A stretch of DNA of 64,000 bases from Diabrotica undecimpunctata (taxonomy: Eukaryota; Arthropoda; Insecta; Coleoptera; Chrysomelidae): contig NC_092804.1 in NCBI RefSeq assembly GCF_040954645.1, positions 93,132,862 to 93,196,861 on the forward strand, given 5' to 3'. The notes under the pieces are model-generated. The model had not been told where the DNA came from. It did not search any database and worked only from the letters and a program-made list of their open reading frames with translations. A program made the translations under genes and the position numbers. Of this stretch, positions 1,421 to 64,000 are shown piece by piece; position 1 is the first letter of the stretch; each line of letters begins with the position of its first letter.

Positions 1421-1423
<3 letters not shown>

Positions 1424-1654
1424 AGCAAATCAACAGTTACGTCCAATGTATGGGGAAAAGACACGTTTATGCTTTTATTTTTTTAAACATTTTTCTACTA
1501 CGTTCTTTCTACCGCTCCGCCTTTTTTAAACGAGTTTTTTTTTAGGGCTATTTTAAACACTATGTCCTCTGCTATTACATTAATATGACTGGTTCATTAT
1601 TTTTTTTCTTTCTTGCAGCCAATAATGAATGTTGTTTATCCTGTGTATCTTCCA

Positions 1655-5718: not shown

Positions 5719-5721
5719 CAG

Positions 5722-8700
5722 CGAGGAGCTAAAACAGTTTCCCCTCCACTTTCCTATGTCGATCTTTCGAAAGTAACTTCGTTTCGAAAGGGTTTAAGTT
5801 TCGAAAAATTGGATGAATTTTATAGCTATAAAATTCAATATAAAGTTTAGATTTTCATTCAAAATTTGTGCAAATTTTACTTCTTAATGTTTATAAACAA
5901 TGGAGATATAATTACCAAAAAAATTGTCGCTAACTTCGTTCCTATTGTTCATGGAAGGTTTATTTTTTTTGGTAAATGTGAGTTTTTTTACCAGCTATCT
6001 AATAGTTTTACCTACAAGTCTGTAGCTTGAAAAATATAGAAGTTATTACAATTGTTTATACGTAAAAAACATACCCCTTTTTCAAACGTTTATTTTGTAA
6101 ATAATTTCGATGAACACTCAATATTCATTTAACTTCTGAGATAGTATGAGTCTTAAAGAATCCTATGAAATTTGTTAAATGTGTCTAACATCATTCATAG
6201 GGCAAGTTCAATTGTTTAAATAATTAGTCCCAGGGATAAACAAATTGAATAACTTTTAAACTATTTGACCGATCGGGGGGAAATTTCTCACAAATTTAAA
6301 GGACGGTAATTCCTCAATGTTGAAATGTATTAATAACATTTTATTTTGTTAATAAAAAAATTAATTAAATTTATAAATTAGTCCAAAAAAACTGCTTTTT
6401 TGCAAATATCTCCGTAAATTATTTATCAATTTTATTTGAAAAAACGGGAAAATAAATATATTCTTGATATAAAAAAATGGTGTAAATATTGTTTATCTAA
6501 ATTCTAAGGGAAAAAACTTATAGATAAAAAATCAAATTCTGACCATAAATTATTGTTTAAAAAAAACGCAAGATAAAAATAGGAGTATCTTTTTATCTAT
6601 TCGTCATCTATGTATTATAGTAACCCCCACCTATGTTTTAAAAGCTTCAGATATCTGCGAAACATTTTGCCGTGAAATCGATGATTTTTGTATAACCAGA
6701 CTGGGCTAATAATGATATACGGAAGATAAACAGGATAAACAACATTCATTAATGGCTGCAAGAAAGAAAAAAAATAATGAACCAGCCATATTAATGTAAT
6801 AGCAGAGGACAGTGTGTTTAAAATAGCCCTGAAAAAAAAGCTCGTTTAAAAAAGGCGGAGAGGTAGAAAGTTTTAAATATTTGCTCTTTGCTGGGCCCAT
6901 AACCTTTTGAATATTTGCTCTTGTGATTATCTCTTTATTATTCAATAACCTCAATATGAATGTATCACAGATACATTCATATTATACCTTTTTTATTGTT
7001 CCTAAAAACTAACCATAATAAAAAGAGACTCTTTAATGCCCTAATACCTTAATACCTTTAATACCTACCAGGTAGGTATTTATTATACAAAATTTGATTC
7101 GAAAATATCGTCGAAAAATAAAAGTCAGTACGTAAAATTTTAAATTTTTAATTAAAAGTAAAAGATTAGCCATTGCTTATGGGGTTCAAAGATGGAACCT
7201 TTATGAAGATTAAAGTACTAATATGACCACCAAACTTAGGCGTACCCTGGGTATCGATTAATTAATTAATCGCCCAATTTTTCAATCACCCTAATATGAT
7301 TTTGTCAAATCGGTCCTTTTTAGGACTAACTATTCTAATTATGTCTATAAATATTGAGAGTATATATAGAGATAAAAAACTTTACTTGATCTTATCATAC
7401 ATATGCACTAAGTAAAAATGTGACGTATTTCTAGTACAACACATAGACGGCTGAACTACGTTAAACCTAGGGTATTTGGTATTAAGCTTATCGCTGAAAA
7501 CCACATGGTAAATATGGAAGTGCTCCCTCTGCTGGCAAAGAAACAAAGAAAAACTTAATGTGAGAGAGGACAAGACCAGTCAGTTGAAGGAACCTTTTAA
7601 CGATTTTGAGCTGATTACGAAATTTTGACCAAGACCACTACAATGGCTTCTCCGGCATCGGATGATGTACAGCTGTATCTCGCCAAAGTTGTTGCCTTGC
7701 TTAAACTCCAATGACCACAATAACTATCGGCCAATATCTTTATTTTGTCAGCTATTTAAAATATACGGGCCACTACAGCAAAGTGGCTATAGACAGGAAA
7801 GATTATGTACGTCACAAATACTAAATCTTACCCAACACAACGAAGACGGGTACGAAAGATATCAGATATCTGGGGTGATATTTGTCAATTTTGATACCGC
7901 TTACGTCACCATAAATTAGAGGACAAAAAACTATATGATATCCCCTTAGATAATAAAAATCACTTAATTATTCGCGTATGTCTACAGAAGAATTTCAGTA
8001 TCACTTAATGATAAGAATACCAGATGGGGAATGCAGAACAGTCTCGCTTGAAGTAGCGTAAGGCCATCTACAATATATTACATATACAAAAACAATCAAT
8101 CCATACCAGTAGATACCAGGACGATATGTAGACGATACATCTATTGTTGCACAACCAAAAACTTTTGTGGCTGAAGTGGAGAAAAATCTAAATGATACCT
8201 TAAATACTATAAAAATACAATACGAATTAATTTTAAGCCAAAGTTCGGAAAAACTCAGGTGTTCTCCTTAAATTTCCGTAATACGGACGCTTTCACAAAA
8301 ACTCTACATTCAATAGTGTAATCTAATTCTTGAACTCTAGATTTACTATAAATACTTTGAAGATAGTTTATATCGCACGCTCTCATTCACAGAAATAAAG
8401 TCTAGATTCGTAAGATCCATTCCACGAAAACCAGTTTCATTGTATGACGACTCAAATCGAGAAAAAACTGTAAGATATACCAGAAAAACTCGTCATGCCA
8501 AAAAAAGAAGCTGATCCTTGCCATCTGAACCCTCAAGGGGATCTTCCTTCTGCTAGTTAACTTCCTTATTCTGCCTGAATGATTCTTGTCCGCATACACC
8601 GATAAACTATTTGAATGTGAGAGTGGTTTAAGAGTTATCACACCTTCTTAGTTGTCATAGGCTAGAACGATCTCCTGCACACAATTGACTTTACAATTTA

Positions 8701-28753: not shown

Positions 28754-28902
28754 TGTCCTGTGGTCTGTGAACTGTGTTTGTCATTTGTCATCTTAGTTTT
28801 AGTTAATGTCATATGTAATTGTCATGTTATTCATTCAAACAAAACAATGCTAATTTCTTGTATATTAAAACCTAGTTTATAAAGGTTTTGCATTTCATTA
28901 CA
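28754..28902 (+). repeat. 5' LTR of the gypsy element
   Basis: Begins tgtcctgtgg and ends tttcattaca (TG...CA), 149 bp. Identical by eye to 32554-32700 except that the 3' copy lacks the last two bases. Very short for a Ty3/gypsy LTR. Confidence 0.92.
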
Positions 28903-28920
28903 ATTTAATATACAAGAAAT
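28853..28920 (+). promoter_or_regulatory. Candidate self-priming site: PBS complementary to the element's own LTR
   Basis: The 17 nt at 28904-28920 (tttaatatacaagaaat), starting 2 nt after the LTR, are the exact reverse complement of 28853-28869 (atttcttgtatattaaa) inside the LTR. I see no match to a tRNA 3' end of the usual TGG-start form. In Tf1/sushi-type elements the first bases of the transcript fold back onto the PBS to prime reverse transcription. The leader is only 25 nt before the gag ATG at 28928. Confidence 0.6.
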
Positions 28921-28927
28921 ATCAAAT

Positions 28928-31438
28928 ATGGATAAGCTACTACGACCATACAGATTCGATGCAGATCCTAACTCTCCTAGATCGTCTCAAGAATGGATGC
29001 ATTGGAAAGCTACATTTAAAAACTTTATTTCCTCTGTGATTGATGTTTCAGAGGAGGAGAAATTCAAACTACTGGTAAATTACGTGAGCAACAATATCTA
29101 TGAACTCATCTCTGATTGTAGAAAGTATTCTGAAGCCAAAAGTATTCTCGAAGCAGCTTTTGTTAAACCCAAAAATGAAATTTTTGCCAGACATATCCTA
29201 ATGACAAAAAAACAACAAACTGGTGAAAACATAGGTCAATACGTTCAACATCTTAAAGTGCTTTCCAAAGACTGTAATTTTCTAGCCGTTTCTGCAGACC
29301 AAAATAGAGAAGATTATATAAGAGACTCTTTTATTAATGGCATTCTTTCTAATTACATAAGACAACGTTTACTAGAAAACAACACTATTACTCTGCAAGA
29401 TGCCATAGTGAAAGCCCAGTCTCTGGAGTCAGCTTCAAAACACTCTGAGGCTTATACAACTCCTGTACAAATTATTAATGCAATTTCTTCCGAAACCAGA
29501 GAGCACACTAATTATACTTCTGCTGCTGTGAAAAGTTGGAAATGTTACTTTTGTGGATCAACTGAAAGGCATCCTCGTAGCCTATGCCCTGCTAGAGACA
29601 AAGTTTGTAAGAAATGCTCGAAAGTTGGACATTTTTCCAAGGTATGTATGCTTCAGATGCCCAATTCAGTATCAGCTGCTGTTTTAGCTACTACTACATC
29701 TAGTTCCAATGTTAGAAATCTTGCTGCTGCCCCTCAATGCTTATCTAAAAGTGTTACTGAGATAAAGGTGAATGGAAATACAACTGAAAGTTTAATAGAC
29801 ACAGGTAGTTCTGAGTCATATATCAGTAAGAATTATGCATTGTCTATAAACGTGAAAACATTTAGAAGTCATGCAAATATAATAATGGCTTCAACAGCAC
29901 TCAGAACGACTATCTCAGGACACTGCTTTGTTAATTTAGAAATAAACGAACATTCCTATAAAAATGTCAAATTATCAATAATTCAAGATTTATGTGCTGA
30001 TGTAGTTATAGGTCATGACTTGCTTAAACAACATTCTTCTCTAGAAATCACTTTTGCTGGCTCAAAAATGCCTTTAGTTATTGATCGTATAGATAACATT
30101 TGTAGTTTGGCATACTTAAATATAGAGCCACCCAAATTATTCTCCAATCTAGAAAATGATTGCAAACCGAGGGCAACTAAATCAAGAAAATTTTCAACTG
30201 AAGATAGAAAATTCATATCTGACGAGATACAGTATCTGCTATTGAATGGAATCATAGAAGAAAGCAACTCTCCTTGGCGTGCACAAGTACTTATTACAAA
30301 AAGTGAAACACACAAAAAGCGAATGGTGGTAGATTATTCACAAACGATTAATAAATTTACTTACTTAGATGCCTATCCTCTCCCAGATGTTGAAGATATT
30401 GTTAGAAAAGTAGCAAGATCTTCTGTCTTCAGTACTATTGATCTTAAAAATGCATACCATCAAATTCGAATCAAAAATGAAGAGAAAATATACACTGCTT
30501 TTGAAGCCAACGGCCAACTATACCAATTTTGCCTGATTACTTTTGGGGTAACCAACGGAGTGGCTTGTTTTCAAAGGGTTATCGATGGTATTATTAAATC
30601 CGAACATTTAAAAGGTGTATATGCATATCTTGATGACATTACGGTTTGTGGATTAAATCAACAACAACATAATGAAAATCTTAATAAATTTATGGAAGTA
30701 GCGAAGAAATACAATCTAACAATAAATCAAAATAAAAGTTCTTATACACTAAATTCAATCAAACTTTTGGGTTATCAAATAGAAAATCAGACCTTAAAAC
30801 CTGATCCTGAAAGACTTGAACCATTAAAGAAGTTACTCTTACCAAACGATTCACAATCACTTAAGAGAGCTGTCGGAATGTTTGCACATTATTCCAAATT
30901 TATCCCACAATTTTCAGAAAAGATACAAAAACTAGTCACATGCAATACTTTTCCTTTAACAGAACAAGCAGCTGAAGCTTTCCAAATTCTTAAATCTGAA
31001 ATTATTTCTTCAGCCGTTACTACGATTGATGACAAGATTCCTTTTATCGTTGAATCTGATGCTTCAGATTTTTGTATTGCTGCTTCTCTTAGCCAAGGAG
31101 GAAGACCTGTTGCTTTCTTTTCAAGAACATTATCAAAAAGTGAAAGAAATCATTCATCTGTGGCAAAAGAGGCTTATGCAATAGTGGAAGCTCTTAGAAA
31201 ATGGAGACATTTCTTGATAGGTAAAGATTTTCGACTTATAACTGATCAAAAGTCTGTCTCTTTTATGTTCAATATGCGCCACACTAGTAAGATAAAAAAT
31301 GAGAAGATTATCAGATGGCGCCTTGAATTATCATGCTACAGTTTCGATATTCAGTACCGACCAGGAGTTGAGAATGTGAGTGCCAGATACTTTCTCACGA
31401 GTGAGCTGTTCAATAAATCCTCGACCAAGTCTATTTGA
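28928..31438 (+). CDS. Gypsy Gag-Pol polyprotein (gag, protease, RT, RNase H)
   Basis: Single ORF of 836 codons. Residues 1-200: gag. About 206-240: two zinc knuckles, the second CKKCSKVGHFSKVC of the CX2CX4HX4C form. About 290: protease with LIDTGSSESYIS. About 430-640: reverse transcriptase, with VVDYSQTINKFT, DLKNAYHQIRI and the catalytic YLDD in YAYLDDITVCG. About 700-810: RNase H (ESDASDFCIAASLSQGG, AKEAYAIVEALRKWRHFL). There is no frame break between gag and pol. The frame ends prematurely near 31380 by a one-base change, so integrase lies in other frames. It starts at the ATG nearest the LTR. If the break is a sequence error the element could be intact. Confidence 0.95.
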   Translation: MDKLLRPYRFDADPNSPRSSQEWMHWKATFKNFISSVIDVSEEEKFKLLVNYVSNNIYELISDCRKYSEAKSILEAAFVKPKNEIFARHILMTKKQQTGENIGQYVQHLKVLSKDCNFLAVSADQNREDYIRDSFINGILSNYIRQRLLENNTITLQDAIVKAQSLESASKHSEAYTTPVQIINAISSETREHTNYTSAAVKSWKCYFCGSTERHPRSLCPARDKVCKKCSKVGHFSKVCMLQMPNSVSAAVLATTTSSSNVRNLAAAPQCLSKSVTEIKVNGNTTESLIDTGSSESYISKNYALSINVKTFRSHANIIMASTALRTTISGHCFVNLEINEHSYKNVKLSIIQDLCADVVIGHDLLKQHSSLEITFAGSKMPLVIDRIDNICSLAYLNIEPPKLFSNLENDCKPRATKSRKFSTEDRKFISDEIQYLLLNGIIEESNSPWRAQVLITKSETHKKRMVVDYSQTINKFTYLDAYPLPDVEDIVRKVARSSVFSTIDLKNAYHQIRIKNEEKIYTAFEANGQLYQFCLITFGVTNGVACFQRVIDGIIKSEHLKGVYAYLDDITVCGLNQQQHNENLNKFMEVAKKYNLTINQNKSSYTLNSIKLLGYQIENQTLKPDPERLEPLKKLLLPNDSQSLKRAVGMFAHYSKFIPQFSEKIQKLVTCNTFPLTEQAAEAFQILKSEIISSAVTTIDDKIPFIVESDASDFCIAASLSQGGRPVAFFSRTLSKSERNHSSVAKEAYAIVEALRKWRHFLIGKDFRLITDQKSVSFMFNMRHTSKIKNEKIIRWRLELSCYSFDIQYRPGVENVSARYFLTSELFNKSSTKSI

Positions 31439-40250: not shown

Positions 40251-40322
40251 CTCCCCGACTGGGAATCGAACCCCGGTCTCCCGCGTGACAGGCGGGGATA
40301 CTGACTACTATACTACCGAGGA
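40251..40322 (-). tRNA. tRNA-Asp (GTC), possibly a pseudogene
   Basis: The 72-nt minus-strand sequence starts tcctcggtagtatagtagtc and ends gtcggggag. The anticodon arm cccgcctgtcacgcggg carries anticodon GTC in a perfect 5-bp stem. The acceptor stem pairs 7/7 with one wobble. The T loop is ttcgatt. Deviations: one mismatch in the T stem (cgggg/cccag) and the usual GG of the D loop reads AG. It lies in the centre of an inverted PLE pair, so it may be a real tRNA gene used as landing site or a transposed relic. Confidence 0.8.
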
Positions 40323-46600: not shown

Positions 46601-47090
46601 GTCGCCCTTCGCCGGCACTTGACAAGGGCGAGAATACGTCGGAGTGCGGAAGAGGTGGAACGTGTAAATACGTCTTACCGTGCGAGAAGGGAGTTCAATA
46701 GGAGGATGAGACTCGAGAAGAGGCATAGGAGGAGACTGTGTGACAAGCTGGACGATTTTGACCTGAGATGAAGGGTATATTTCGACGCGTGTGCTCTGTA
46801 TGACATCACCATGGACCAGAAGCTAGAGATAGTCACTAAACTGTTTCCACAAAGAGGGTCGCATGGTGCGCGGAGAGACGTGGAGGCTAAGCGTGGGATT
46901 CCCTTTACGTTGGATGAACTGGCTGTGATGGTGGGTTCCCTCAAATCTATCAGGGCTCAAGGTCTAGATGGAGTCCCGCCAGAGGTGGTTGTACATCTGG
47001 GGCGTTTGGAGCCCACGTGGCTTCAACAGCACATAAATGCTCTTCTTGCCGCTGAGTCATTTCCAGATCCCTGGAAAATCTCGCGACTCG
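43685..47090 (+). pseudogene. R1-clade LINE, 5' part: leader, ORF1, endonuclease, start of RT
   Basis: More GC-rich than its surroundings. Order: leader (43685-44170); ORF1 pieces at 44173-44526, 44715-45098 and 45265-45636, with basic stretches; a damaged C-terminal ORF1 part with CPFCDDIG (about 45655); endonuclease pieces at 45908-46222 (LRVLQTNVGRVKLPHDLAL, then an internal deletion, then CVVLGDFNAKI); R1-type linker at 46445-46771 (RMPYWWCVEIQQLRRECVAL, RARREFNRRM); and the first RT block at 46811-47090 (DGVPPEVVVHLG, PDPWKISRL). Continues at 60306 after a 13.2-kb insertion. Confidence 0.88.
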
Positions 47091-47479
47091 AGTAATTAGG
47101 CAGCACCGGTTCTGGCTATTTTCCCATGTTAAATCCCATAAGAAATCGCTAAGGTCCATTCTGGTCATTTTTGGCTCTTTTTGTGGTGGAGGCGCGACGG
47201 CTCATCGGATCGCGACGTATGAGGTATTGTTGGAACCGTACGCGCAATGGTGCGATGGCGGTAGGGCAAAGGGGGCGAGAGGGGCCGGGCGAGGGGTGCG
47301 GGGGGATAGGGGTACTCGAGGTGTCGTCGATACATGAAAATAGCGTTAATTCTTCTTCTTTTGTGAAAAATCGTCCAAACGTGAAGATAGCGTGAATTCT
47401 TCTTCTTTTCGTATCGTTCAAACTTGAAAATAGCGTCAATTTTTTTAAAGCGTAACAGGGGCTGTTGGTAAAAGGGTGC

Positions 47480-48440
47480 GTTGGCTCGGCGGATCGTGAC
47501 GAACAAAGGGGTCGTTGTAAATGGGGAGGAGGTAACAAATACATTGAAGCAAAAAACAAAGATGGCGGCATTATCAAAACGGCACTAAGCTGTTAACGTC
47601 TAAACGGCTCAACGTACAACAACGTGCAAGGTATCGTTGGAAAGGGGAGGGGGTAACGAATACGATGAAGAAAAAATACAAAGATGGCGGCATTGCCAAA
47701 ACGGCACTAAGCTGTTAACGTCTAAACGGCTCAACGTACAACAAAGTGCAAGGTATAGATGGAAAGGTGAGGAGGTAACGAATACGTTACAGCAAAAAAC
47801 AAAGATAGCGGAATTGCCAAAAGGACACTAAGCTTGTAGCGTCTAAACTGCTCAACGTATAACAATGTGTAAGGTATCGATGGAAAGGGGAGGGACAAAC
47901 GAATACGTTGACACGAAAACAAAGATGACGTCATTGTCAAAAGGACACTAATCTTGTAAAGTCTAAACAGCTCAACGTACAACAACGTGCAAGGTATCGA
48001 TGGAATTGGGAGATGGTAATGAATATGTTAAGACAAAAAGCAAACGCAAAGACAATGCCAAAACGGCACTATATCATATCTCCATCGTTATTTGTCAGAT
48101 TACTACGCGAAAAACGTTAAATGAAAGAGGAGGGGGTATCGAATACGTTAACACAAAAACAAAGACAAATTGCCAAAAAGGCACTACACCGTATCTTCGT
48201 TTCTATTGGTTCGATCTTCGCGAATGAGGGCTCGTTGGAAAGAGGAGAAGATATCAAAATATTTTATCATAAAAACAAAGACGAAAACATTGTCAAAATG
48301 GCACTATATCGGATCTTTGTTGCGATTGATCGAATTTTAGCATAATAGACGTTAAAGGAATGGAGAGTAGTCACTGAGGCTAACAGAGAAACAAACATGA
48401 CAACATTGTGAAAACGACGCTAAATCATATCTTTGCTGCT
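47480..48440 (+). repeat. ~121-bp tandem repeat array (left arm)
   Basis: Units start at ggcactaagctgttaacg and run through caaggtatcg, gaggaggtaacgaatacg and acaaagatggcggcattgcc. Four close copies (about 47581-48060) are followed and preceded by more diverged ones, about eight in all. All share a gccaaaa-ggcacta junction. Confidence 0.85.
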
Positions 48441-48599
48441 ATTGGACCTATTTAGAAGGGGATTCCACGTACATTACAGTTCATCATCCCGTCTCACCAC
48501 CTGTAGGTTTCATCCTTTAACTATGCCCAAACCATCTAACACCTGTCATCATAAAAAGACACTTTTTTAGTTTATCGCTTCTTCTTTCTCTCTCTCTCT

Positions 48600-48905
48600 C
48601 TCACGAAACAATCGACCAATAGTGGTATAGGAACATCCACAAGTAAACGCCTGAATGGTGATATGTCAACGTCCAATGATGACATGTAAACGCCCCAAAC
48701 CGTGGTGTTACGTATTCTCATATCACCAGGCCCTAACCAATACGTACCCTCATGCACCACGCCCCAACATGTATCGACCAATGATGACATAGGAACGGTA
48801 AGTAAACGCCTTAATGGTAACATGTAAACGCCCCTCGACACAATGAGAATGAAGTCATGACCAAAGAGATTCCACCCCGAGGCGCGCAGTCGTGTGGGAT
48901 AAAAG
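48600..48905 (+). promoter_or_regulatory. Motif cluster upstream of the GNAT-like ORF (left arm)
   Basis: Contains several copies of gtaaacgcc / ggcgtttac (four), accaat-atgatgac or accaatagtggtatagga repeats, and short inverted units, within 250 bp directly before the ORF. A TATA-like ggataaaag lies at about 48898-48906. Mirrored at 58565-58870. Promoter function is inference. Confidence 0.4.
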
Positions 48906-48970
48906 TCGACCTGATAGAGGTTACATGATTGAATAAAATTCTGTATGTATCAAGCCTTCTAAGAAGTAAG

Positions 48971-49126
48971 ATGGATAAAATCAAGTTGTTCAGAGGTTCG
49001 AACGTAGTCAGAAAAATAAAACGCTTAAATTTAGATGACATACTTATTGATCAATGGATGACAAACACTGAAGTTACCTGCTATATCTTTTATATCAGCG
49101 GAGAACCAGTATCGTTTGTTCTATAA
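48971..49126 (+). pseudogene. GNAT-like acetyltransferase ORF, truncated copy (left arm)
   Basis: Starts ATGGATAAAATC; the first 51 codons match the right-arm copy with one difference (T for S near codon 37, QWMTNTE). It ends at the same TAA stop. The sequence that continues the frame in the right arm is deleted here (about 187 bp), leaving only the 3' end from catggaataatg. Confidence 0.6.
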
Positions 49127-49654
49127 TCAAATTCATGGAATAATGAAGTATACTGTAATGTTTAGATATTCATAATAAAATCGAAATAAACATATAAACA
49201 ACATATCGTGTTATATTTCTTCCACACTTATTGCAGTCTACCACACTGTACTCTGTAATAACGGAATAGGTAATAGAATATAGAAAAACGTGATATTCTC
49301 AAAGGACATACGATGGGTATATCGCATCAGAATGACTAGAAAATAATTCACAGTTAACCTTTCGATGTTTGGCAATTTTAAACTTCGGACAACAACATGT
49401 AACGTACCCTAACTGTAAACGAACTGTAACAGATATCTAACGCGATCGAACATATAGCAGAAGTATACCTGACACTATCTAACGCATATGCAATGTATAG
49501 CAGACGCGTTCTAACTCATATTAGACGTATAACAGTTGTAAACTAGACTCAAGATAGGACAGAACAATCGCTAAAGAAAATCTGTCGGAAAAAAAACGAA
49601 ATTTGTCAGAGTAAGAAATGAAAGAATCGTAAGAAATTATATGCGTTAATCACA

Positions 49655-49790
49655 GAATAACGAAGGACATCGCAACTACACTGGTATAGACACGTCCACA
49701 GAATGGGCGACAACAAAAAACTATTATATTGGACACAACAGGAAAGACGGAAATGTAGGTCATCAACTACTATACATAAATATATAAATC
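49655..49790 (+). pseudogene. LINE C-terminal scrap inside the left arm
   Basis: Reads LHWYRHVHRMGDNKKLLYWT and QQERRKC, resembling the LxWxGHVxRM...W.P.GRR.RGRP block after the RT in RTE-type LINEs. The mirrored copy is at 57495-57630 on the minus strand, so it was present before the arms were duplicated. Confidence 0.55.
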
Positions 49791-49869
49791 TCATCTGAGC
49801 AGTCATTACAAGTATCCTCCGAACAGTAACTACTATACACAACTCACAAATACGATTATTGGTATGCGA

Positions 49870-50372
49870 TAACGTTTTATTGCATAATATATTTTATCTA
49901 CAACAATTACTATTTTACAACGATATTCAGATATAATCCAATTATAACGAGGACTAAAAACGAATTTACCATTCTTCCAGTATGTTCAAACAACTAACGT
50001 ATATTACTCGACATAGATATGAGTTGGATGATCACAAACCGACAAGGACCTAAACGTTCTCTACAAGCCACATCTGAACGACCACTACTATACACAAATC
50101 TCCACTGAACGTACAATTCGACAAGAGTCTCCGCTGAACACTCACTAATACATACAGATCTCATCTGAACGTATAATTAGCCAAGAGCCTTATCTACATA
50201 TCCACTACTATACATAAATCTCCAAGATGACTATTTTTCGATTTGATGCATAGTATATTTTATCTACAACAATTACCATTTTACAATGATATTCAGATAT
50301 AATCCAATTATGACGAAGACTAACCAACGAATGATTACCATCCATAAATTATGTTCAAACAAACTAACGTGC
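49870..50372 (+). repeat. Direct duplication of ~130 bp with inner subrepeats (left arm)
   Basis: atattttatctacaacaatt ... caatta...acgaagactaa recurs: 49880-50000 and 50248-50372. Between them three copies of a ~65-bp unit (cacaaatctccactgaacgt, caagagtctc) occur. Mirrored in the right arm at about 56930-57420. No gene recognised from 49130 to 50980 apart from the LINE scrap. Confidence 0.6.
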
Positions 50373-50989
50373 CGAAAGACCATTACTTTATATCTTCGTT
50401 GTTACTTATCTGATTTTGACGTACAAGGCGTTAAATGAAAGGTGAAAGGAAAGCGTAAATATGTGCATACTATAGTTTATCTACGACGAGCAAGTAATTT
50501 ATTGTTTTAAAGTGGATAATGAACATTGGTCTCTGTAAGAATATATGTTGGTCACAGACGGTTCTTCAATAGCCATCAGGCAACAATTTCCCCTGATCAT
50601 GTTTATAAAACATACGGAATGCACTGTATATACCTAACCCTAGTTGACAGCGCACTTTGCAGGTCCCGTCTCACGATCAACTAATAGGTTTAAGTACAAC
50701 TCCCTTCGTGAAGTTACACACGCGTGAATCCGTGCAGGAAAATGTCGACCATCCTTTTTATACTCCGTAAAGGACCATCAAATATTCAACGTTAAAATAT
50801 TTCAGGTGTATTAACAAAGAAAAATTAAATTAAATACATTTTTAGAGTATATATAATTATAGAGTATATATAGTTTTAGAGTATATCCTTTGGATGTGAA
50901 AATTAAAAGTAAATATATTATGTTATATAAAAGAAAAACTCAGCCATCGAGTAAATACATGACTACCACAATACGCTACGGTAACTCTA

Positions 50990-51470
50990 AGACTGAAATG
51001 ATGTACATAAAATGATAGAAAAACATGTATAAAATATCTGATATAGAACCATGTGAGACAGAAAGCATGGACAATAATGATGGAAAATGTATAAAATATC
51101 CGACATAGAAACACGTAAAAAATAAACGCTGTACATAAAATGATAGAAAATGTGTGTAATATCTGAAATACAAACACATAAGGCAGAAAGCATGGACAAT
51201 AATGATAGAAAATGTATAAAATATCTGACATAGAAACATGTAAGACAGAAAAGCTGTACATAAAATGATGGAAAATGTATAAAATATCTGACGTAGAAAC
51301 ACGTAAGAAAGAACTGCTGTACATAAAAATGTATGAAATACCTGACATAGAAACACATAAGGCAGAAAGCATGGACAATAATGAATGAAAATGTATAAAA
51401 TATCTGACACAGAAACACGTAAGGCTGAAAGCATGGATAATAATGATAGAAAATGTATAAAATTGTATGT
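50990..51470 (+). repeat. ~62-bp satellite-like array A (left arm)
   Basis: Units share aaaatgtataaaatatctga and catagaaacacgtaag, followed by one of two variant halves: gcagaaagcatggacaataa or aaagaaatgctgtacataaa. About eight units. Open reading frames across it (up to 206 codons) are by-products of repeat length and base content. Confidence 0.92.
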
Positions 51471-51479
51471 TTTAAATAA

Positions 51480-52375
51480 TACATAAATTAATAAACAATA
51501 TGAAAAACTTGGAAAAAAAAATAATGGATAACAGATGTGGTATAAAACCAAAATTTTAAAATATTTTTTGTATGTCTCTATTTTTTTAATCAACAATTAC
51601 TTACTTTATTATTTGTGAAATGCACTGTTCCATTTTAAAAACGAGAAAATTAAACAATATATTTACAAATAATATTGCATGTTTTAAATAATGCAGAAAT
51701 AAATTACATACATAATGACAAACTTAGAATGATGGTGTATAAAATCAAATACAAGCCCTCTAAAATATATAAAATAGTACTTACTTTTTTTAAATTGTTT
51801 TACTTGTAGCACAAATTTTTTTGTAACACAAAACGAACACGTTATTACAAAGGCGAACTGCAGACTGAGTATAACAGAATGGATCCGTTCATTAAATAGT
51901 CAGGCTGGTATGACGTAACTCGACTGGAAATTATCGAGAATTGCAAGCCGAATCTTGTCTGTACACACGTGCACCGGATATTGTCGACTGTGAAAACGCT
52001 GAATCGTGAGACAATGTTAAAAAGGAATGCAGTGACATCCGGTAACGTTCTCGTTAGCAGTATTTCGCATCATATTACGTCCAGCCGTATATGTATATCT
52101 ATATGACTAACAAGCTGATTCTTGAAAAAAATTGTTGCACGTGTTTCCGACGACCGTGTGAGAAATGTTAAAAGGAAATGCACATCCGCTAGTTGGAATA
52201 TTTATAAAGATTTATAAGTTTAATTATATAATATACGAAGTTACTCGCAAATTACTAGTAATATATAAATTAAAAAGTCAACGAATTTTTGCTATTACAC
52301 TATTCGTTGTGGATGAAATATATACGAGGTTGATTAAAAATTACTTGTAAAATATAAACTGAGAAAATTTAAAAG
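51480..52375 (+). other. Spacer between arrays A and B (left arm)
   Basis: Unique, moderately GC-balanced at 51840-52160. No ORF with a recognisable motif. A segment at 51641-51705 (acgagaaaattaaacaatat onward) recurs in the palindrome centre at about 53685-53745. Confidence 0.6.
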
Positions 52376-53190
52376 TTCTTAGAAACACGTAAAAAAGAAA
52401 TGTTGTACATAAAATGATAGAAAATGTGTGAAATATCTAAAATACAAACACGTAAGGCAGAAAGCATGGACAATAATGATAGAACATGTATTAAATATAA
52501 CTGCTGTATATAAAATGATAGAAAATGTATAAAATATCTAACATGGAAACACGTAAGAAAGAAATGCTGTACATAAAAAATGTATGAAATATCTGACATA
52601 GAAACACGTAAGACAGAAAGCATGGACAATAATGATGTAAAATGTATGAAATATCGAATAAAAATTGAGAAGTACTGGAAAGGATGATAGAAAATGTATA
52701 AAATATCTAACATAGAAACACATAAGAATGAAAGCATGGACAATAATGATGTAAAATGTAGAAAATATCTGATATAGGAACACGTAAGAAAGAAATGCTG
52801 TACATAAAATGACAGAAAATGTGTAAAATAGTTGACATACAATCACGTAGGGCAGAGTGCATGGACAATAATGATAGAAAATGTATAAAATATAACTGCT
52901 GTACATAAAATGATAAAAAAAATCTGACAAAGAAACACGTAAGGCAGAAAGCATGGACAATATTGATGGAAAATGTATAAAATATCTTACATAGAAACAT
53001 GTAAGACAGAAAAGCTATACATAAAATGATAGAAAAATGTATAAAATATCTGACATAGAAACACGTAAGAATGAAAGCATGGACAATAATGATGTAAAAT
53101 GTATAAAATATCTGACATAGGAACACGTAAGAAAGAAAATGTCTAAAAAATATATGGCATAGAAACAAGTAAGGCAGAAAGCATGGGTAA
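52376..53190 (+). repeat. ~62-bp satellite-like array B (left arm)
   Basis: Same unit as array A, about thirteen copies with internal deletions. Arrays A and B are separated by a unique spacer. Confidence 0.92.
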
Positions 53191-53334
53191 TAATGAACGA
53201 TTTACATGTAAAATTTGCTGAATAGAGAATAATTATATGTCGAAACCGGCAGAGTCTAACATATTATTCAATTGCCAACAATGAGCATAGATGTAAACAA
53301 CAAAAAAATCTTTATTATCCCCATCACAAACATC

Positions 53335-53950
53335 GCTAACACTGAATATTACCAACAGGCAAAGGTCTACTCGGATGGTGTTACGATGAAAAAAGGAGTG
53401 TCTAAAAGTAAATCGACGTCGGCATATTGTACGGTTACTCTAGAGTTCAAATACGACAAAAAAAATGGTTATTGCTGTAATACAGATGCTATGATATAAA
53501 TAAAAGTAATGTTTAAAGTATTTGTTTGTTTTTGTTTATAACTCAGTTGTTGAAATGACCTATTGTAAATACGAAGAAAATGTTCTAATAGAATACCTGC
53601 GGGAACACTTTACAACAATATTTTTAACAAAATATGGTGTGTACAAAAATATTATTCAGCAAAGGAGTGAGAATTTTAAACGTAATACGAGAAAATTAAA
53701 CATATTGACAAATAATATTGCATGTTTTAAATAATGCTGAAATATATAGCTTATATATATATATATATATATGCTGTATAAACTTAATTACGTTGACATT
53801 TGACGGGGGCGTGACGTGGTAAAAGCAATGAAAAAATTGTCGCTTTTCATCGTTTTACGAACTTGTTGATCCCGTATAGAGACATGTAAAATCATTGATA
53901 AATAGAAATTTTAAAAAATGTTAAAAAAGCGATGTAAAACGATGAAAAGT
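53335..53950. other. Unique centre of the giant palindrome
   Basis: Holds the 3' part of a 73-codon ORF starting at 53281 (MSIDVNNKKIFIIPITNIA), whose first ~18 codons lie in the arm. It also holds a second small ORF (53555-53734), a short (TA)n run (53753-53772) and a 16-bp inverted repeat (gtaaaacgatgaaaag and its complement, 53843-53858 / 53934-53949) next to the right arm. I do not recognise either ORF. Confidence 0.7.
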
Positions 53951-54094
53951 GATGTTTGTGATGGGGATAATAAAGATTTTTTTGTTGTTTACATCTATGC
54001 TCATTGTTGGCAATTGAATAATATGTTAGACTCTGCCGGTTTCGACATATACTTATTCTCTATTCAGCAAATTTTACATGTAAATCGTTCATTA

Positions 54095-54910
54095 TTACCC
54101 ATGCTTTCTGCCTTACTTGTTTCTATGCCATATATTTTTTAGACATTTTCTTTCTTACGTGTTCCTATGTCAGATATTTTATACATTTTACATCATTATT
54201 GTCCATGCTTTCATTCTTACGTGTTTCTATGTCAGATATTTTATACATTTTTCTCTCATTTTATGTATAGCTTTTCTGTCTTACATGTTTCTATGTAAGA
54301 TATTTTATACATTTTCCATCAATATTGTCCATGCTTTCTGCCTTACGTGTTTCTTTGTCAGATTTTTTTTATCATTTTATGTACAGCAGTTATATTTTAT
54401 ACATTTTCTATCATTATTGTCCATGCACTCTGCCCTACGTGATTGTATGTCAACTATTTTACACATTTTCTGTCATTTTATGTACAGCATTTCTTTCTTA
54501 CGTGTTCCTATATCAGATATTTTCTACATTTTACATCATTATTGTCCATGCTTTCATTCTTATGTGTTTCTATGTTAGATATTTTATACATTTTCTATCA
54601 TCCTTTCCAGTACTTCTCAATTTTTATTCGATATTTCATACATTTTACATCATTATTGTCCATGCTTTCTGTCTTACGTGTTTCTATGTCAGATATTTCA
54701 TACATTTTTTATGTACAGCATTTCTTTCTTACGTGTTTCCATGTTAGATATTTTATACATTTTCTATCATTTTATATACAGCAGTTATATTTAATACATG
54801 TTCTATCATTATTGTCCATGCTTTCTGCCTTACGTGTTTGTATTTTAGATATTTCACACATTTTCTATCATTTTATGTACAACATTTCTTTTTTACGTGT
54901 TTCTAAGAAC
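54095..54910 (-). repeat. ~62-bp satellite-like array B (right arm)
   Basis: Mirror of 52376-53190, nearly base for base. Confidence 0.92.
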
Positions 54911-55805
54911 TTTTAAATTTTCTCAGTTTATATTTTACAAGTAATTTTTAATCAACCTCGTATATATTTCATCCACAACGAATAGTGTAATAGCAAAAAT
55001 TCGTTGACTTTTTAATTTATATATTACTAGTAATTTGCGAGTAACTTCGTATATTATATAATTAAACTTATAAATCTTTATAAATATTCCAACTAGCGGA
55101 TGTGCATTTCCTTTTAACATTTCTCACACGGTCGTCGGAAACACGTGCAACAATTTTTTTCAAGAATCAGCTTGTTAGTCATATAGATATACATATACGG
55201 CTGGACGTAATATGATGCGAAATACTGCTAACGAGAACGTTACCGGATGTCACTGCATTCCTTTTTAACATTGTCTCACGATTCAGCGTTTTCACAGTCG
55301 ACAATATCCGGTGCACGTGTGTACAGACAAGATTCGGCTTGCAATTCTCGATAATTTCCAGTCGAGTTACGTCATACCAGCCTGACTATTTAATGAACGG
55401 ATCCATTCTGTTATACTCAGTCTGCAGTTCGCCTTTGTAATAACGTGTTCGTTTTGTGTTACAAAAAAATTTGTGCTACAAGTAAAACAATTTAAAAAAA
55501 GTAAGTACTATTTTATATATTTTAGAGGGCTTGTATTTGATTTTATACACCATCATTCTAAGTTTGTCATTATGTATGTAATTTATTTCTGCATTATTTA
55601 AAACATGCAATATTATTTGTAAATATATTGTTTAATTTTCTCGTTTTTAAAATGGAACAGTGCATTTCACAAATAATAAAGTAAGTAATTGTTGATTAAA
55701 AAAATAGAGACATACAAAAAATATTTTAAAATTTTGGTTTTATACCACATCTGTTATCCATTATTTTTTTTTCCAAGTTTTTCATATTGTTTATTAATTT
55801 ATGTA
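54911..55805 (-). other. Spacer between arrays B and A (right arm)
   Basis: Mirror of 51480-52375; nothing further recognised. Confidence 0.6.
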
Positions 55806-56300
55806 TTATTTAAAACATACAATTTTATACATTTTCTATCATTATTATCCATGCTTTCAGCCTTACGTGTTTCTGTGTCAGATATTTTATACATTTTCAT
55901 TCATTATTGTCCATGCTTTCTGCCTTATGTGTTTCTATGTCAGGTATTTCATACATTTTTATGTACAGCAGTTCTTTCTTACGTGTTTCTACGTCAGATA
56001 TTTTATACATTTTCCATCATTTTATGTACAGCTTTTCTGTCTTACATGTTTCTATGTCAGATATTTTATACATTTTCTATCATTATTGTCCATGCTTTCT
56101 GCCTTATGTGTTTGTATTTCAGATATTACACACATTTTCTATCATTTTATGTACAGCGTTTATTTTTTACGTGTTTCTATGTCGGATATTTTATACATTT
56201 TCCATCATTATTGTCCATGCTTTCTGTCTCACATGGTTCTATATCAGATATTTTATACATGTTTTTCTATCATTTTATGTACATCATTTCAGTCTTAGAG
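55806..56300 (-). repeat. ~62-bp satellite-like array A (right arm)
   Basis: Mirror of 50990-51470. Confidence 0.92.
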
Positions 56301-58108
56301 TTACCGTAGCGTATTGTGGTAGTCATGTATTTACTCGATGGCTGAGTTTTTCTTTTATATAACATAATATATTTACTTTTAATTTTCACATCCAAAGGAT
56401 ATACTCTAAAACTATATATACTCTATAATTATATATACTCTAAAAATGTATTTAATTTAATTTTTCTTTGTTAATACACCTGAAATATTTTAACGTTGAA
56501 TATTTGATGGTCCTTTACGGAGTATAAAAAGGATGGTCGACATTTTCCTGCACGGATTCACGCGTGTGTAACTTCACGAAGGGAGTTGTACTTAAACCTA
56601 TTAGTTGATCGTGAGACGGGACCTGCAAAGTGCGCTGTCAACTAGGGTTAGGTATATACAGTGCATTCCGTATGTTTTATAAACATGATCAGGGGAAATT
56701 GTTGCCTGATGGCTATTGAAGAACCGTCTGTGACCAACATATATTCTTACAGAGACCAATGTTCATTATCCACTTTAAAACAATAAATTACTTGCTCGTC
56801 GTAGATAAACTATAGTATGCACATATTTACGCTTTCCTTTCACCTTTCATTTAACGCCTTGTACGTCAAAATCAGATAAGTAACAACGAAGATATAAAGT
56901 AATGGTCTTTCGGCACGTTAGTTTGTTTGAACATAATTTATGGATGGTAATCATTCGTTGGTTAGTCTTCGTCATAATTGGATTATATCTGAATATCATT
57001 GTAAAATGGTAATTGTTGTAGATAAAATATACTATGCATCAAATCGAAAAATAGTCATTTTGGAGATTTATGTATAGTAGTGGATATGTAGATAAGGCTC
57101 TTGGCTAATTATACGTTCAGATGAGATCTGTATGTATTAGTGAGTGTTCAGCGGAGACTCTTGTCGAATTGTACGTTCAGTGGAGATTTGTGTATAGTAG
57201 TGGTCGTTCAGATGTGGCTTGTAGAGAACGTTTAGGTCCTTGTCGGTTTGTGATCATCCAACTCATATCTATGTCGAGTAATATACGTTAGTTGTTTGAA
57301 CATACTGGAAGAATGGTAAATTCGTTTTTAGTCCTCGTTATAATTGGATTATATCTGAATATCGTTGTAAAATAGTAATTGTTGTAGATAAAATATATTA
57401 TGCAATAAAACGTTATCGCATACCAATAATCGTATTTGTGAGTTGTGTATAGTAGTTACTGTTCGGAGGATACTTGTAATGACTGCTCAGATGAGATTTA
57501 TATATTTATGTATAGTAGTTGATGACCTACATTTCCGTCTTTCCTGTTGTGTCCAATATAATAGTTTTTTGTTGTCGCCCATTCTGTGGACGTGTCTATA
57601 CCAGTGTAGTTGCGATGTCCTTCGTTATTCTGTGATTAACGCATATAATTTCTTACGATTCTTTCATTTCTTACTCTGACAAATTTCGTTTTTTTCCGAC
57701 AGATTTTCTTTAGCGATTGTTCTGTCCTATCTTGAGTCTAGTTTACAACTGTTATACGTATGATATGAGTTAGAACGCGTCTGCTATACATCGCATATGC
57801 GTTAGATAGTGTCAGGTATACGTCTGCTATATGTTCGATCGCGTTAGATATCTGTTACAGTTCGTTTACAGTTAGGGTACGTTACATGTTGTTGTCCGAA
57901 GTTTAAAATTGCCAAACATCGAAAGGTTAACTGTGAATTATTTTCTAGTCATTCTGATGCGATATACCCATCGTATGTCCTTTGAGAATATCACGTTTTT
58001 CTATATTCTATTACCTATTCCGTTATTACAGAGTACAGTGTGGTAGACTGCAATAAGTGTGGAAGAAATATAACACGATATGTTGTTTATATGTTTATTT
58101 CGATTTTA

Positions 58109-58501
58109 TTATGAATATCTAAACATTACAGTATACTTCATTATTCCATGATTAACACATTTACATTTACCAAACAACCGTTCCGATTCTGTGTTGGAGC
58201 AAAATGCTCTGAATTTGTTATTTTTCTTTACATGTTCTATAAGTTTGCATGCGTATCCTCTTTTTCGATGATGAGGTAATGTATATACGTAATCTAATAC
58301 TCTTGGTACATCATACTGTCTGAGTGGATCAAAGGCGCATTTTGATTATAGAACAAACGATACTGGTTCTCCGCTGATATAAAAGATATAGCAGGTAACT
58401 TCAGTGTTTGACATCCATTGATCAATAAGTATGTCATCTAAATTTAAGCGTTTTATTTTTCTGACTACGTTCGAACCTCTGAACAACTTGATTTTATCCA
58501 T
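58109..58501 (-). pseudogene. GNAT-like N-acetyltransferase ORF with one internal stop (right arm)
   Basis: From ATG at 58501 the frame runs 51 codons to a TAA (58346-58348) and then continues open, in the same frame, for 78 codons to a TAA at 58109. The second part reads PRVLDYVYTLPHHRKRGYAC, KLIEHVKKNNKFRAFCSN and ESERLFGKC. HRKRGYA fits the acetyl-CoA-binding R/Q-x-x-G-x-G/A motif of GNAT enzymes, and FCSN..S..LF.K fits the following strand and helix. About 129 residues is short but within the family range. The substrate cannot be inferred. Preceded by the motif cluster at 58565-58870. Confidence 0.6.
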
Positions 58502-59009
58502 CTTACTTCTTAGAAGGCTTGATACATACAGAATTTTATTCAATCATGTAACCTCTATCAGGTCGACTTTTATCCCACACGTCTGCGCGCCTCGGGGTGG
58601 AATGTCTTTGGTCATGACTTCATTCTCATTGTGTCGAGGGGCGTTTACATGTTACCATTAAGGCGTTTACTTACCGTTCCTATGTCATCATTGGTCGATA
58701 CATGTTGGGGCGTGGTGCATGAGGGTACGTATTGGTTAGGGCCTGGTGATATGAGAATACGTAACACCACGGTTTGGGGCGTTTACATGTCATCATTGGA
58801 CGTTGACATATCACCATTCAGGCGTTTACTTGTGGATGTTCCTATACCACTATTGGTCGATTGTTTCGTGAGAGAGAGAGAGAGAGAAAGAAGAAGCGAT
58901 AAACTAAAAAAGTGTCTTTTTATGATGACAGGTGTTAGATGGTTTGGGCATAGTTAAAGGATGAAACCTACAGGTGGTGAGACGGGATGATGAACTGTAA
59001 TGTACGTGG

Positions 59010-59850
59010 AATCCCCTTCTAAATAGGTCCAATAGCAGCAAAGATATGATTTAGCGTCGTTTTCACAATGTTGTCATGTTTGTTTCTCTGTTAGCCTCAG
59101 TGACTACTCTCCATTCCTTTAACGTCTATTATGCTAAAATTCGATCAATCGCAACAAAGATCCGATATAGTGCCATTTTGACAATGTTTTCGTCTTTGTT
59201 TTTATGATAAAATATTTTGATATCTTCTCCTCTTTCCAACGAGCCCTCATTCGCGAAGATCGAACCAATAGAAACGAAGATACGGTGTAGTGCCTTTTTG
59301 GCAATTTGTCTTTGTTTTTGTGTTAACGTATTCGATACCCCCTCCTCTTTCATTTAACGTTTTTCGCGTAGTAATCTGACAAATAACGATGGAGATATGA
59401 TATAGTGCCGTTTTGGCATTGTCTTTGCGTTTGCTTTTTGTCTTAACATATTCATTACCATCTCCCAATTCCATCGATACCTTGCACGTTGTTGTACGTT
59501 GAGCTGTTTAGACTTTACAAGATTAGTGTCCTTTTGACAATGACGTCATCTTTGTTTTCGTGTCAACGTATTCGTTACCTCCTCACCTTTCCATCTATAC
59601 CTTGCACTTTGTTGTACGTTGAGCCGTTTAGACGTTAACAGCTTAGTGCCGTTTTGGCAATGCCGCCATCTTTGTATTTTTTCTTCATCGTATTCGTTAC
59701 CTCCTCCCCTTTCCAACGATACCTTGCACGTTGTTGTACGTTGAGCCGTTTAGACGTTAACAGCTTAGTGCCGTTTTGATAATGCCGCCATCTTTGTTTT
59801 TTGCTTCAATGTATTTGTTACCTCCTCCCCATTTACAACGACCCCTTTGT
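59010..59850 (-). repeat. ~121-bp tandem repeat array (right arm)
   Basis: Same array mirrored. It has one close unit fewer: the segment at 59510-59620 fuses parts of two left-arm units, as expected from unequal recombination or slippage. Confidence 0.82.
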
Positions 59851-60299
59851 TCGTCACGATCCGCCGAGCCAACGCACCCTTTTACCAACAGCCCCTGTTA
59901 CGCTTTAAAAAAATTGACGCTATTTTCAAGTTTGAACGATACGAAAAGAAGAAGAATTCACGCTATCTTCACGTTTGGACGATTTTTCACAAAAGAAGAA
60001 GAATTAACGCTATTTTCATGTATCGACGACACCTCGAGTACCCCTATCCCCCCGCACCCCTCGCCCGGCCCCTCTCGCCCCTTCGCCCTACCGCCACCAC
60101 CCCGTAGCCAAAACAGTGTTACCCATAGCTGCGCGAAACCCGTTGCGCGTACGGTTCCAACAATACCTCATACGTCGCGATCCGATGAGCCGTCGCGCCT
60201 CCACCACAAAAAGAGCCAAAAATGACCAGAATGGACCTTAGCGATTTCTTATGGGATTTAACATGGGAAAATAGCCAGAACCGGTGCTGCCTAATTACT

Positions 60300-61118
60300 G
60301 ACTCGTGCTCCTACCTAAATTCAAGGCAGAAAAATATCGTCCCATTTGTCTTCTTTCTTGCATCGGAATGTGCACGTATCGAGCAGGTGATTGTGATGTC
60401 TGGAGGCCTGTCTCCGAGCCATATGGTTTCTGCCAGAGCAAAAGTACAGCGGATGCGGTGACCAATGAGCTTCAAAAGGCACGGGGAATTAGGGCTGTTC
60501 ACCGATGTGGCCATCCTGATTCTCTTTGACGTTCGAAATGCTTTTAATACATTGCAGTGGGGCCACGTAATGAGCTCTTTAGAAGCAAGAAACTGTTCTA
60601 GGTATCCAAAGAATGAGAAGTTTGGCTGATCTATCCGATAGGAAGATTGCGGTGTGAGAATGGTGAGACGGTGGATGTACCAGCTGGAGTCCCGCAAGAC
60701 TCTGTCCTGGGTCCGATGCTGTGCAACCTGGCATATGACTGGGTCTTAAACTGCGAATATGGGGAGAGTGTAACCCTCTTCGCATTCGCGGATGACCCCG
60801 CTATGTTGGTGGCGGCACGGGACAGGGAGAAACTCTTGCTTCGAATTACGCGTCTGTGTGTCCTCGTTGAGGATTGGATGAGCGAACAGGATCTTCCTCT
60901 CACGGAGGATAAGACGGAGGCTGTAGTACTCAGAGGCTACAAAAAGAGAGAAAGTGTTGTATTTGAGAACGCGGCAGCGAGAGTGACGCCCACAAAGTAC
61001 GTTAAGTATCTGGAGTTACTCTCTACCAGGGTACGAGTTGGGAGGAACATTTGAGGGGAGTGATCCGCAGAGCTATTCAGAGAATGGTTGCACTGGGGAG
61101 GATAATAAACAATATCGA
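60300..61118 (+). pseudogene. R1-clade LINE, RT continuation after the insertion
   Basis: Resumes the RT: LLPKFKAEKYRPICLLSCIG (60305), FCQSKSTADAVTNELQKA, then the core at 60647-61054 (VPAGVPQDSVLGPMLCNLAY, LFAFADDPAMLVAARDREKL, LTEDKTEAVVLRG) and EHLRGVIRRAIQRM. The FADD catalytic pair is intact, but frame breaks occur near 60520 and 60630. It stops abruptly at about 61118, so the RT C-terminus, zinc knuckle and 3' end are missing. Confidence 0.9.
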
Positions 61119-62886: not shown

Positions 62887-64000
62887 CTAATTCACAAATT
62901 TATTTCTTTTTTCTTTTTTTGAAATTATTTTTGTTTTTTTATCTACATTTATCATTTCGTAAACGTTCTTTTGTTCTTTGTTCTTTTTTGTATTGATTTT
63001 TGATTCACTTGTAACTTCTGCAAGCTGATCATTTATGACAATACCTCGTTCTAGAGCAACTTCTGCTTGTTTCAACTTTTTACTCTTTTTATTGTTCGAA
63101 ATAATTGATGTTTGATCAATACGTTCTTGTGATAGATTTTCTAATTTTTCAGACGATTTAGTCGTCTTATTTTTCGATTTTTTTAATTGCATACTTTTCA
63201 AATTATCATGATCTGCTACCGAAGATATCTCACTTTTTGTTAACTCCTTTTTTCTTTTTATTTTCCGATTTTCTCCATTTTGTAATATACTTATTTTCTC
63301 ACATTTCTCTGATTCTTCATCAAACTTCCGTATCTTCCTGTCACTTGCAGTTTTATCTAGTATATATTTTTTTTCGGTTAAAGTATCACCTGTATAATGT
63401 TTCTTCTTTTTTTGTTTATATTTCGAAATAACTTCATTCTGATTGGGATTTTTGGAACCATTACGACATTTATCGTTTTGTTCGCAATCTTCATTTATAT
63501 AAACATTTTGTATGTTCTTCTTTTCTTTTTTATCTTCTGTTTTATGGACGTGGTTTTCACTAAATTCTTTATCGATTAAATTCTGCTTATATTTTCTTTG
63601 TTTCTTTAACTTCCATTTTTCGTTTTCTTGGACATGCTTTTTAAAATTAAAGATTCTAGTACTGAAAAATTGATTTTCTTCAGCTTCCTGTAATCTCTCA
63701 AAGATCGCTACGAAAAATCCATTAGTATAATCAGAATGAGGTTTTGCATACAGACAGAACTTTCCTATATCTCCATAATCGGATGAACCGAAACTATGCC
63801 ATGTTTCACCAACAAATTGACTAGCTGAAATTAACTTAAAATTGTAATTTGTTTCCAATACTTGGCGCACAACATCTTCGTTTTCTTCAGACATTATTGA
63901 ACATGTAGAATAAACAACTCTTTTGGCACTTGGAAATTTAGTAAGGGCATGTCGAAGAATTTTTATTTGAAATCCAGTTAGGCTTGACAACCTCGAGGGC
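62887..64000 (-). CDS. NSUN5-type 28S rRNA (cytosine-C5) methyltransferase, C-terminal part
   Basis: Minus strand, open from the window edge (64000) to a stop at 62887. It begins SRLSSLTGFQIKILRHAL and continues FPSAKRVVYSTCSIMSEENE, the motif with the conserved TCS cysteine of the NOL1/NOP2/Sun (RsmB-like) methyltransferase family. In NSUN5/Rcm1 this enzyme methylates one cytosine of the large-subunit rRNA in the nucleolus. The catalytic domain ends at about residue 110 (GFFVAIFERL). The remaining ~260 residues are a Lys/Glu/Asn-rich low-complexity tail with likely nuclear or nucleolar localisation signals. The in-frame TTG at 63990 is an internal Leu codon and not a start. This looks like a 3'-terminal exon; the SAM-binding part lies outside. 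No break is seen: a live host gene. Confidence 0.9.
   Translation of the reverse strand, partial: PSRLSSLTGFQIKILRHALTKFPSAKRVVYSTCSIMSEENEDVVRQVLETNYNFKLISASQFVGETWHSFGSSDYGDIGKFCLYAKPHSDYTNGFFVAIFERLQEAEENQFFSTRIFNFKKHVQENEKWKLKKQRKYKQNLIDKEFSENHVHKTEDKKEKKNIQNVYINEDCEQNDKCRNGSKNPNQNEVISKYKQKKKKHYTGDTLTEKKYILDKTASDRKIRKFDEESEKCEKISILQNGENRKIKRKKELTKSEISSVADHDNLKSMQLKKSKNKTTKSSEKLENLSQERIDQTSIISNNKKSKKLKQAEVALERGIVINDQLAEVTSESKINTKKNKEQKNVYEMINVDKKTKIISKKEKRNKFVN

Follow-up and report, generated by a model that had tools for sequence, protein, structure and literature searches.

Polintons, also called Mavericks, carry PolB, integrase, ATPase and capsid genes, and their replication in animals has been inferred mainly from these genes. 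The vertebrate Mavericks described in one account are 12.7–24.6 kb long and have terminal inverted repeats (TIRs) of 46–1,447 bp, 6-bp target-site duplications and AGT-type end motifs that are thought to serve protein-primed replication (PMC8097293). Fold-back designs are already known from other elements: the Foldback and Galileo elements of Drosophila have long, internally repetitive inverted repeats, with TIR extension by recruitment of inner sequence as described for Galileo (PMC3573991), and the leaf beetle Callosobruchus is reported to contain palindromic non-autonomous Tc1-mariner elements of 0.65–2.2 kb (PMC10849321). A literature search at the level of titles and partial abstracts found no report of a palindromic or mirror Polinton. 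The subject here is a 13,209-bp palindrome in a 64,000-nucleotide stretch of the leaf beetle Diabrotica undecimpunctata (contig NC_092804.1; the whole stretch is referred to as the window). It belongs to a family of giant palindromes, termed here the GNAT family after the acetyltransferase gene in its arms, which may derive from Polintons by folded-back copying.

The GNAT family resembles Polintons in its AG..CT ends, 6-bp duplications, inverted ends and similar length. It differs in the extent of the inverted repeats, since its arms of 8.6–8.9 kb make up nearly the whole element whereas the TIRs given for vertebrate Mavericks reach 1,447 bp, and in gene content: a GNAT gene is present, while the scanned parts showed no gene for PolB, integrase, ATPase or capsid. 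The Callosobruchus Tc1-mariner palindromes are likewise fully inverted, but the elements described here are 17.4–17.8 kb long with 6-bp duplications. Galileo belongs to the P superfamily, with TIRs of up to ~1.25 kb in the published description (PMC3573991), and the ends of the present family are different. Counterparts in design are found in the same genome, where mirror-image Polintons with outward PolB genes are also palindromic to or near the centre, with arms at least 99.5% alike in the copies compared; the one whose ends were read has a terminal sequence different from that of the GNAT family.

The window element occupies positions 47091–60299, and its AGT and ACT ends are the exact limits of the mirror symmetry. 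The original prediction of a one-unit insertion with a GACTCG duplication and AGT...ACT termini was borne out on the sequence, and alignment confirmed the predicted inverted arms of ~6.2 kb. The centre is unequal and measures 610 bp rather than the predicted 616 bp. The aligned arms differ at 18 substituted positions and by larger indels: a 38-bp difference close to the right end, one unit of the 121-bp tandem repeat, and 188 bp that only the right arm has. Most of the arm differences fall within the outer 2.6 kb; another copy, E2, has no such slope. When the flanks are rejoined with one copy of the duplication, a single open frame runs over the insertion site (...WKISRL/VLLPKFKAEKYRP...). The restored frame thus agrees with the prediction, while its assignment to an R1 reverse transcriptase is by eye, and a Pfam search with the 107-aa left piece alone gave no match.

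Other copies with the same termini were found by searching the genome with the first ~304 bp of the element (47097–47400), which matched at least 49 places, many of them inverted pairs 12–30 kb apart. The best 40 of 850 candidates were scored and the counts are lower bounds; for all pair counts given here, a partner not found may be an unscored one. Both ends were read in ten further paired copies besides the window element. Target-site duplications of 6 bp are present at all eight independent sites, the window included (AACGAA, CGTAAA, GCGGAT, CTCGTG, CTAATT, CTTGTA and TACTAG at the others); E9 lacks its left end, so no duplication can be read there. AGT starts 15 of the 16 ends at the eight sites, the exception being the left end of E11 (ATT). 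The copies E6, E7, E8 and E10, on contigs C10 and C11, are taken as one insertion multiplied with its surroundings because they have the same flanks and the same CTAATT duplication; they also share a tandem copy of the element end ~103 bp further out. The element terminus had no relatives in viral_contigs. The insertion is not a one-off but one member of a family. Two conditions named beforehand as refuting the prediction, a lack of other copies and duplications of differing length, were thus decided in its favour.

The original description also did not recognise that the window copy is a shortened one. The fullest copies are 17.4–17.8 kb long, with two arms of 8.6–8.9 kb flanking a spacer of ~60 bp. 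E3 (C10:2370691–2388096) measures 17.4 kb with arms of ~8.6 kb, and E2 spans 30.5 kb, of which 17.8 kb remains after subtraction of a 10.3-kb nested Gypsy element and another nested piece of 2.4 kb. The candidacy of E2 as an autonomous parent was rejected, its large interior frames being the nested Gypsy and a gag-like piece just under the cut-off. The arms of E2 are nearly identical up to its unequal ~60-bp spacer, which is also recognisable in E3, E6 and E15. The common spacer indicates one founding palindrome, made once in the ancestry of these copies, then inherited and transposing as such. In coordinates of the E3 arm, the window element reads 9–6707 forward, then 8451–8271 and 6312–569 backward, and this broken order identifies two deletions around the centre, the first with filler and the second with GAT microhomology. 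By its order the window copy is an internal-deletion derivative of a longer palindrome. Its centre, in which the left arm continues to ~53744 and is followed by filler with a TA run and an inner right-arm remnant at ~53774–53953, is the scar of the two deletions rather than an original loop. Unequal central losses of other kinds occur in E4, E5, E6, E11 and E15; the one in E6 ends at the spacer. When the arm part next to the centre was used as a query (best 40 of 161 candidates scored), 12 of 43 long matches formed six inverted pairs within ~650 bp and 31 stood alone. Loss of the palindrome centre is probably common, although unscored partners may exist.

The relationship between the arms was analysed over a ~2.2-kb block without minisatellites. 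Between the left and right arm of one element the difference is 0.12–2.74%, compared with 0.41–4.32% between arms of different elements. A maximum-likelihood tree built from 18 arms recovered sister arms for all nine elements; the tree requires eight label changes, which is the minimum and was matched by none of 200 shuffles. Eight of the nine sister-arm branches were strongly supported (the E2 branch had 88/84). Arms that are each other's closest relatives imply equalisation at or after each transposition, and the long terminal repeats (LTRs) of retrotransposons are likewise made equal at transposition. The tree would be compatible with replication as well as with gene conversion as the cause.

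Both arms of the window element carry a GNAT acetyltransferase gene with the same in-frame stop (Table 1), a feature missed in the original description. With X at the stop, the gene scored 21.2 bits against PF00583 (cut-off 20.7). A protein search with it yielded a single relative, the 130-aa N-acetyltransferase P0001 of Diabrotica virgifera, which is 71% identical and scored 22.8 bits; the intact gene of E11 scored 20.6 bits, just below the cut-off. A single GNAT piece gave no match in the protein search, and the GNAT piece had no relatives in viral_contigs. The AlphaFold model (predicted local distance difference test score, pLDDT, 41) was too poor for use. Of nine copies, two (E11 and E15) retain an intact gene, in each case in both arms. 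The stop at codon 52 is shared by the window element, E2, E3 and E4, the frame is shifted in E5 and E9, and the gene is degenerate in E6. Since the broken allele occurs at four sites, the family does not depend in cis on an intact gene in its arms. GNAT is a passenger in this family.

Genome-wide, 136 GNAT matches were reduced to 116 places once pieces were merged. Of these places, 68 make up 34 inward neighbour pairs within 30 kb, with no outward and five same-strand pairs. Contig C11 (33.9 Mb, ~2% of the genome) carries 11 of the 34 inward pairs and may represent a chromosome that is rich in repeats or sex-linked. Seven GNAT copies are unpaired, free of stops and 77–78% identical to those of the family (C1:94098840, C4:108873795, C10:81310040, C11:23136858, C2:81211547, C8:132890499 and C5:71911536); the arm gene possibly came from such copies, whether host-like or autonomous.

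With its GNAT remnant, the element is not gene-free. The predicted lack of a visible polymerase and integrase held in the regions scanned. Six-frame Pfam analysis of the window right arm and centre found GNAT plus a weak Zn_ribbon_Com match (E 0.0033, below cut-off), with no capsid, packaging ATPase or protease and no P-type or other transposase domain. A frame at 53260–53496 was set aside; its match to SSRP1 was weak (E 0.0012, below cut-off) and no relatives of it were found. In the middle of E2, Pfam analysis of the minus strand detected no domains other than those of the nested Gypsy, and no polymerase or integrase was seen by eye among frames of at least 140 aa in 16 pieces of eight copies. 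The Peptidase_C5 profile had no match in the genome, nor in the controls, and is therefore uninformative. Because PolB and integrase are missing from the scanned parts, the family would be at most a non-autonomous Polinton relative, not an autonomous member.

PolB Polintons are present in the same genome. The PolB profile PF03175 gave at least 177 matches (best 78 of 916 candidates scored), and the matches listed were sorted by profile range and score into the groups P1, P2 and P3, leaving out one outward pair (C4:81190082/81198538) and four places (C1:53311555, C1:92649860, C9:62496602 and C9:49831711). Among the matches listed, P1 comprises 29 places with six outward PolB pairs, P2 comprises 21 places with no close PolB pair, and P3 comprises 22 places with ten outward pairs and one inward pair between neighbouring elements on C3. 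A DNA search with part of the P1 PolB (best 40 of 108 candidates scored) yielded 10 outward pairs among the 40 places and no other close orientation. At C53:137044–168015, a family end and inward GNAT copies 28 kb apart with a P2 PolB in between probably represent a GNAT palindrome into which a P2 Polinton has inserted.

The outward pairs that were compared lie in mirror-image elements. Around PolB, 4.4 kb are 99.5–99.9% identical in mirror in three P1 pairs; the outer arms of the C10 mirror (C10:1575130–1591572) are 100% identical over 3.47 kb, and the mirror symmetry of the C7 element continues across its centre (96% over 1.2 kb). A P3 pair on C3 has arms 99.8% alike around ~280 bp. Four P1 mirrors span 16.4–17.9 kb. 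Nine P1 elements with one listed PolB, whose asymmetry is inferred from the listing, span 9.6–32.8 kb, four of them 17.6–17.9 kb, and typical P1 elements match full GNAT palindromes (17.4–17.8 kb) in length. PolB lies ~3.5–3.7 kb from the nearest end in two mirrors and two other P1 elements checked. A tree built from 20 PolB loci united the two C10 arms, and likewise the two C5 arms; the C7 arms grouped with one C6 arm amid one-PolB loci, away from the C5 pair. The loci L053 and L057 were taken as single in this tree and inverted partners were later found, while the one-PolB loci L047 and L063 nest among mirrors and may be deleted mirrors. The tree suggests that the mirror form arose repeatedly. 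Outward P3 pairs occur on C3, C5, C6, C10 and C1 (e.g., C3:18441624–18453476, with centre L070), eight of the ten at a near-constant spacing of 11.3–11.6 kb and mostly with long open frames. Polintons of group P3 possibly spread as palindromes, and the group might be autonomous.

The account favoured, with moderate confidence, is that the window element is a shortened copy of a self-complementary, non-autonomous family with Polinton-type ends that originated by fold-back and is mobilised in trans by a putative helper. On the best reading, the family would consist of satellite-like Polinton derivatives. During protein-primed strand-displacement copying of a Polinton, the strand would fold back so that one half is copied twice; the product would be a mirror genome with two good ends, one Polinton end being kept twice. 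The integrase of a putative helper Polinton would insert the mirror genome, since the ends, duplications and length of the palindromes fit, and the Polinton polymerase may copy it. The displaced single strand would fold into an 8.7-kb hairpin and offer a ready duplex end. Arm differences would stand in this hairpin as mismatches, so copying or mismatch repair could make the arms alike again in each cycle. A parallel is provided by adeno-associated virus (AAV), for which symmetric and asymmetric snapback genomes are described as replicating with helper functions (PMC8235507); there too one end of a linear genome is present twice as a mirror. AAV uses rolling-hairpin replication whereas Polintons are expected to be protein-primed, and the mirror form here has become an inherited family of integrated copies. 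A closer parallel may be offered by symmetric adenovirus recombinants.

The fold-back origin is suggested by 6-bp duplications and AGT ends that form the published Maverick signature, the shared spacer, the sister arms, the inward GNAT and outward PolB pairs, the near-identical mirror arms of P1 and the agreement in length between full GNAT palindromes and typical P1 elements. The prediction of a non-autonomous derivative mobilised by Polintons fits the ends, the duplications and the presence of PolB Polintons in the genome; as for a matching helper, the ends of the tested P1 mirror, on C10 (AGTAGAAAAGGATGC), differ from those of the GNAT family beyond AGTA. This difference weighs against the fold-back account, and so do several other observations. 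The flanks of the same mirror, GTGTAC and GTCTAC, match at five of six bases only. The AGTAAT end of the family is not an exact (AGT)2 or (AG)3 of the kind given for vertebrate Mavericks (PMC8097293). Neither a polymerase nor an integrase turned up in the scanned parts of the family. GNAT shows no visible purifying selection, dN/dS (the ratio of nonsynonymous to synonymous rates) being 1.2–1.35 between frame-keeping copies, with few differences; an earlier value of 0.87 was discarded since frameshifted copies had been included. The substitutions in the window copy are uneven, with fewer in the inner arm, a pattern that post-insertion gene conversion could also yield. No DNA intermediate of the fold-back route was seen. 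A bolder version, put forward tentatively and as less than probable, holds that self-complementary Polintons are a stable inherited state, with P3 and part of P1 spreading as palindromes with two outward PolB genes and the GNAT palindromes as their satellites, whose arms are reset by hairpin copying.

The inverted design could also have arisen in the chromosome, through extension of the ordinary terminal repeats of a Polinton-derived element at break repair from the opposite end (TIR1-F1-F1-TIR2), with gene conversion keeping the arms alike. This repair route is proposed by the authors of the Galileo study, who mention expanded inverted repeats of Polintons (PMC3573991), and it agrees with the minisatellites in the arms, as in Galileo and Foldback elements, and with the concentration of arm differences in the outer part of the window copy. 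Equal arms are predicted by repair and replication alike. The spacer common to several copies implies that any extension predates the spread, and mirror forms in more than one Polinton group are more simply accounted for by a general replication route; chromosomal repair is therefore considered rather unlikely. It is more doubtful still that the family is a separate DNA transposon lineage, not related to Polintons, that has 6-bp duplications and AGT ends by chance. The arms, where scanned, yielded no Polinton gene, and 6-bp duplications are also left by other superfamilies such as IS3EU and GingerRoot, but the termini of these two are TA..TA, occasionally TG..CA, rather than AGT..ACT (PMC10045372). 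The length and mirror design of the family match Polintons of the same genome. P-type elements make target duplications of 7–8 bp, compared with 6 bp here. Assembly of long palindromes is difficult, and the window copy has inner arms that are almost the same, as would be expected if the arms were a duplicated or folded read. Such an artefact is highly improbable and was rejected: the arms differ by substitutions and indels, the symmetry stops at the target duplication, the rejoined flanks restore a frame, and many copies with different flanks and duplications share the mirror design.

The features of the window element are collected in Table 1. Elsewhere in the window, a tRNA-Asp gene lies at 40251–40322 and an RsmB/F-type RNA methyltransferase frame, identified with Pfam, at 62890–63999. 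Many retroelement- or transposase-like frames were recognised by eye at 4513–41964, among them an 851-aa LTR-type polyprotein at 28883–31438.

Table 1. Coordinates of the palindrome, its repeats and genes, and the insertion site in the window.
Feature	Position	Strand	Remark
Open frame split by the insertion, left part (R1-like by eye)	46772-47090	+	resumes at 60306
Target-site duplication GACTCG, left copy	47085-47090	+	sequence
Left arm, start AGTAATTAGGCAGCACCGG	47091-53337	+	
121-bp tandem repeat near left end	47523-48044	+	mirrored at 59430-59841
GNAT gene, left arm, same stop as right arm	48971-49131	+	shortened by the 188-bp difference
62-bp tandem repeat array	50988-51463	+	mirrored at ~55822-56297
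62-bp tandem repeat arrays (52573-52893 and 52907-53139)	52573-53139	+	mirrored at ~54146-54771
Unequal centre, 610 bp	53338-53947	no strand	
Right arm, mirror of left arm, end CCGGTGCTGCCTAATTACT	53948-60299	-	
GNAT acetyltransferase gene, right arm, 130 codons	58112-58501	-	one in-frame stop at codon 52
188 bp of GNAT gene, right arm only	58153-58340	-	
Target-site duplication GACTCG, right copy	60300-60305	+	sequence

The mirror-image family, together with the mirror Polintons of the same genome, hints at folded-back copying of such elements. Because integrated mirror genomes are the expected trace of fold-back strand-displacement copying, the mode of replication becomes testable from sequence. 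The age of each insertion may be readable from the divergence between its arms, in the way that LTR divergence is used, and the set of copies provides a natural series in which giant palindromes lose their centres in chromosomes.

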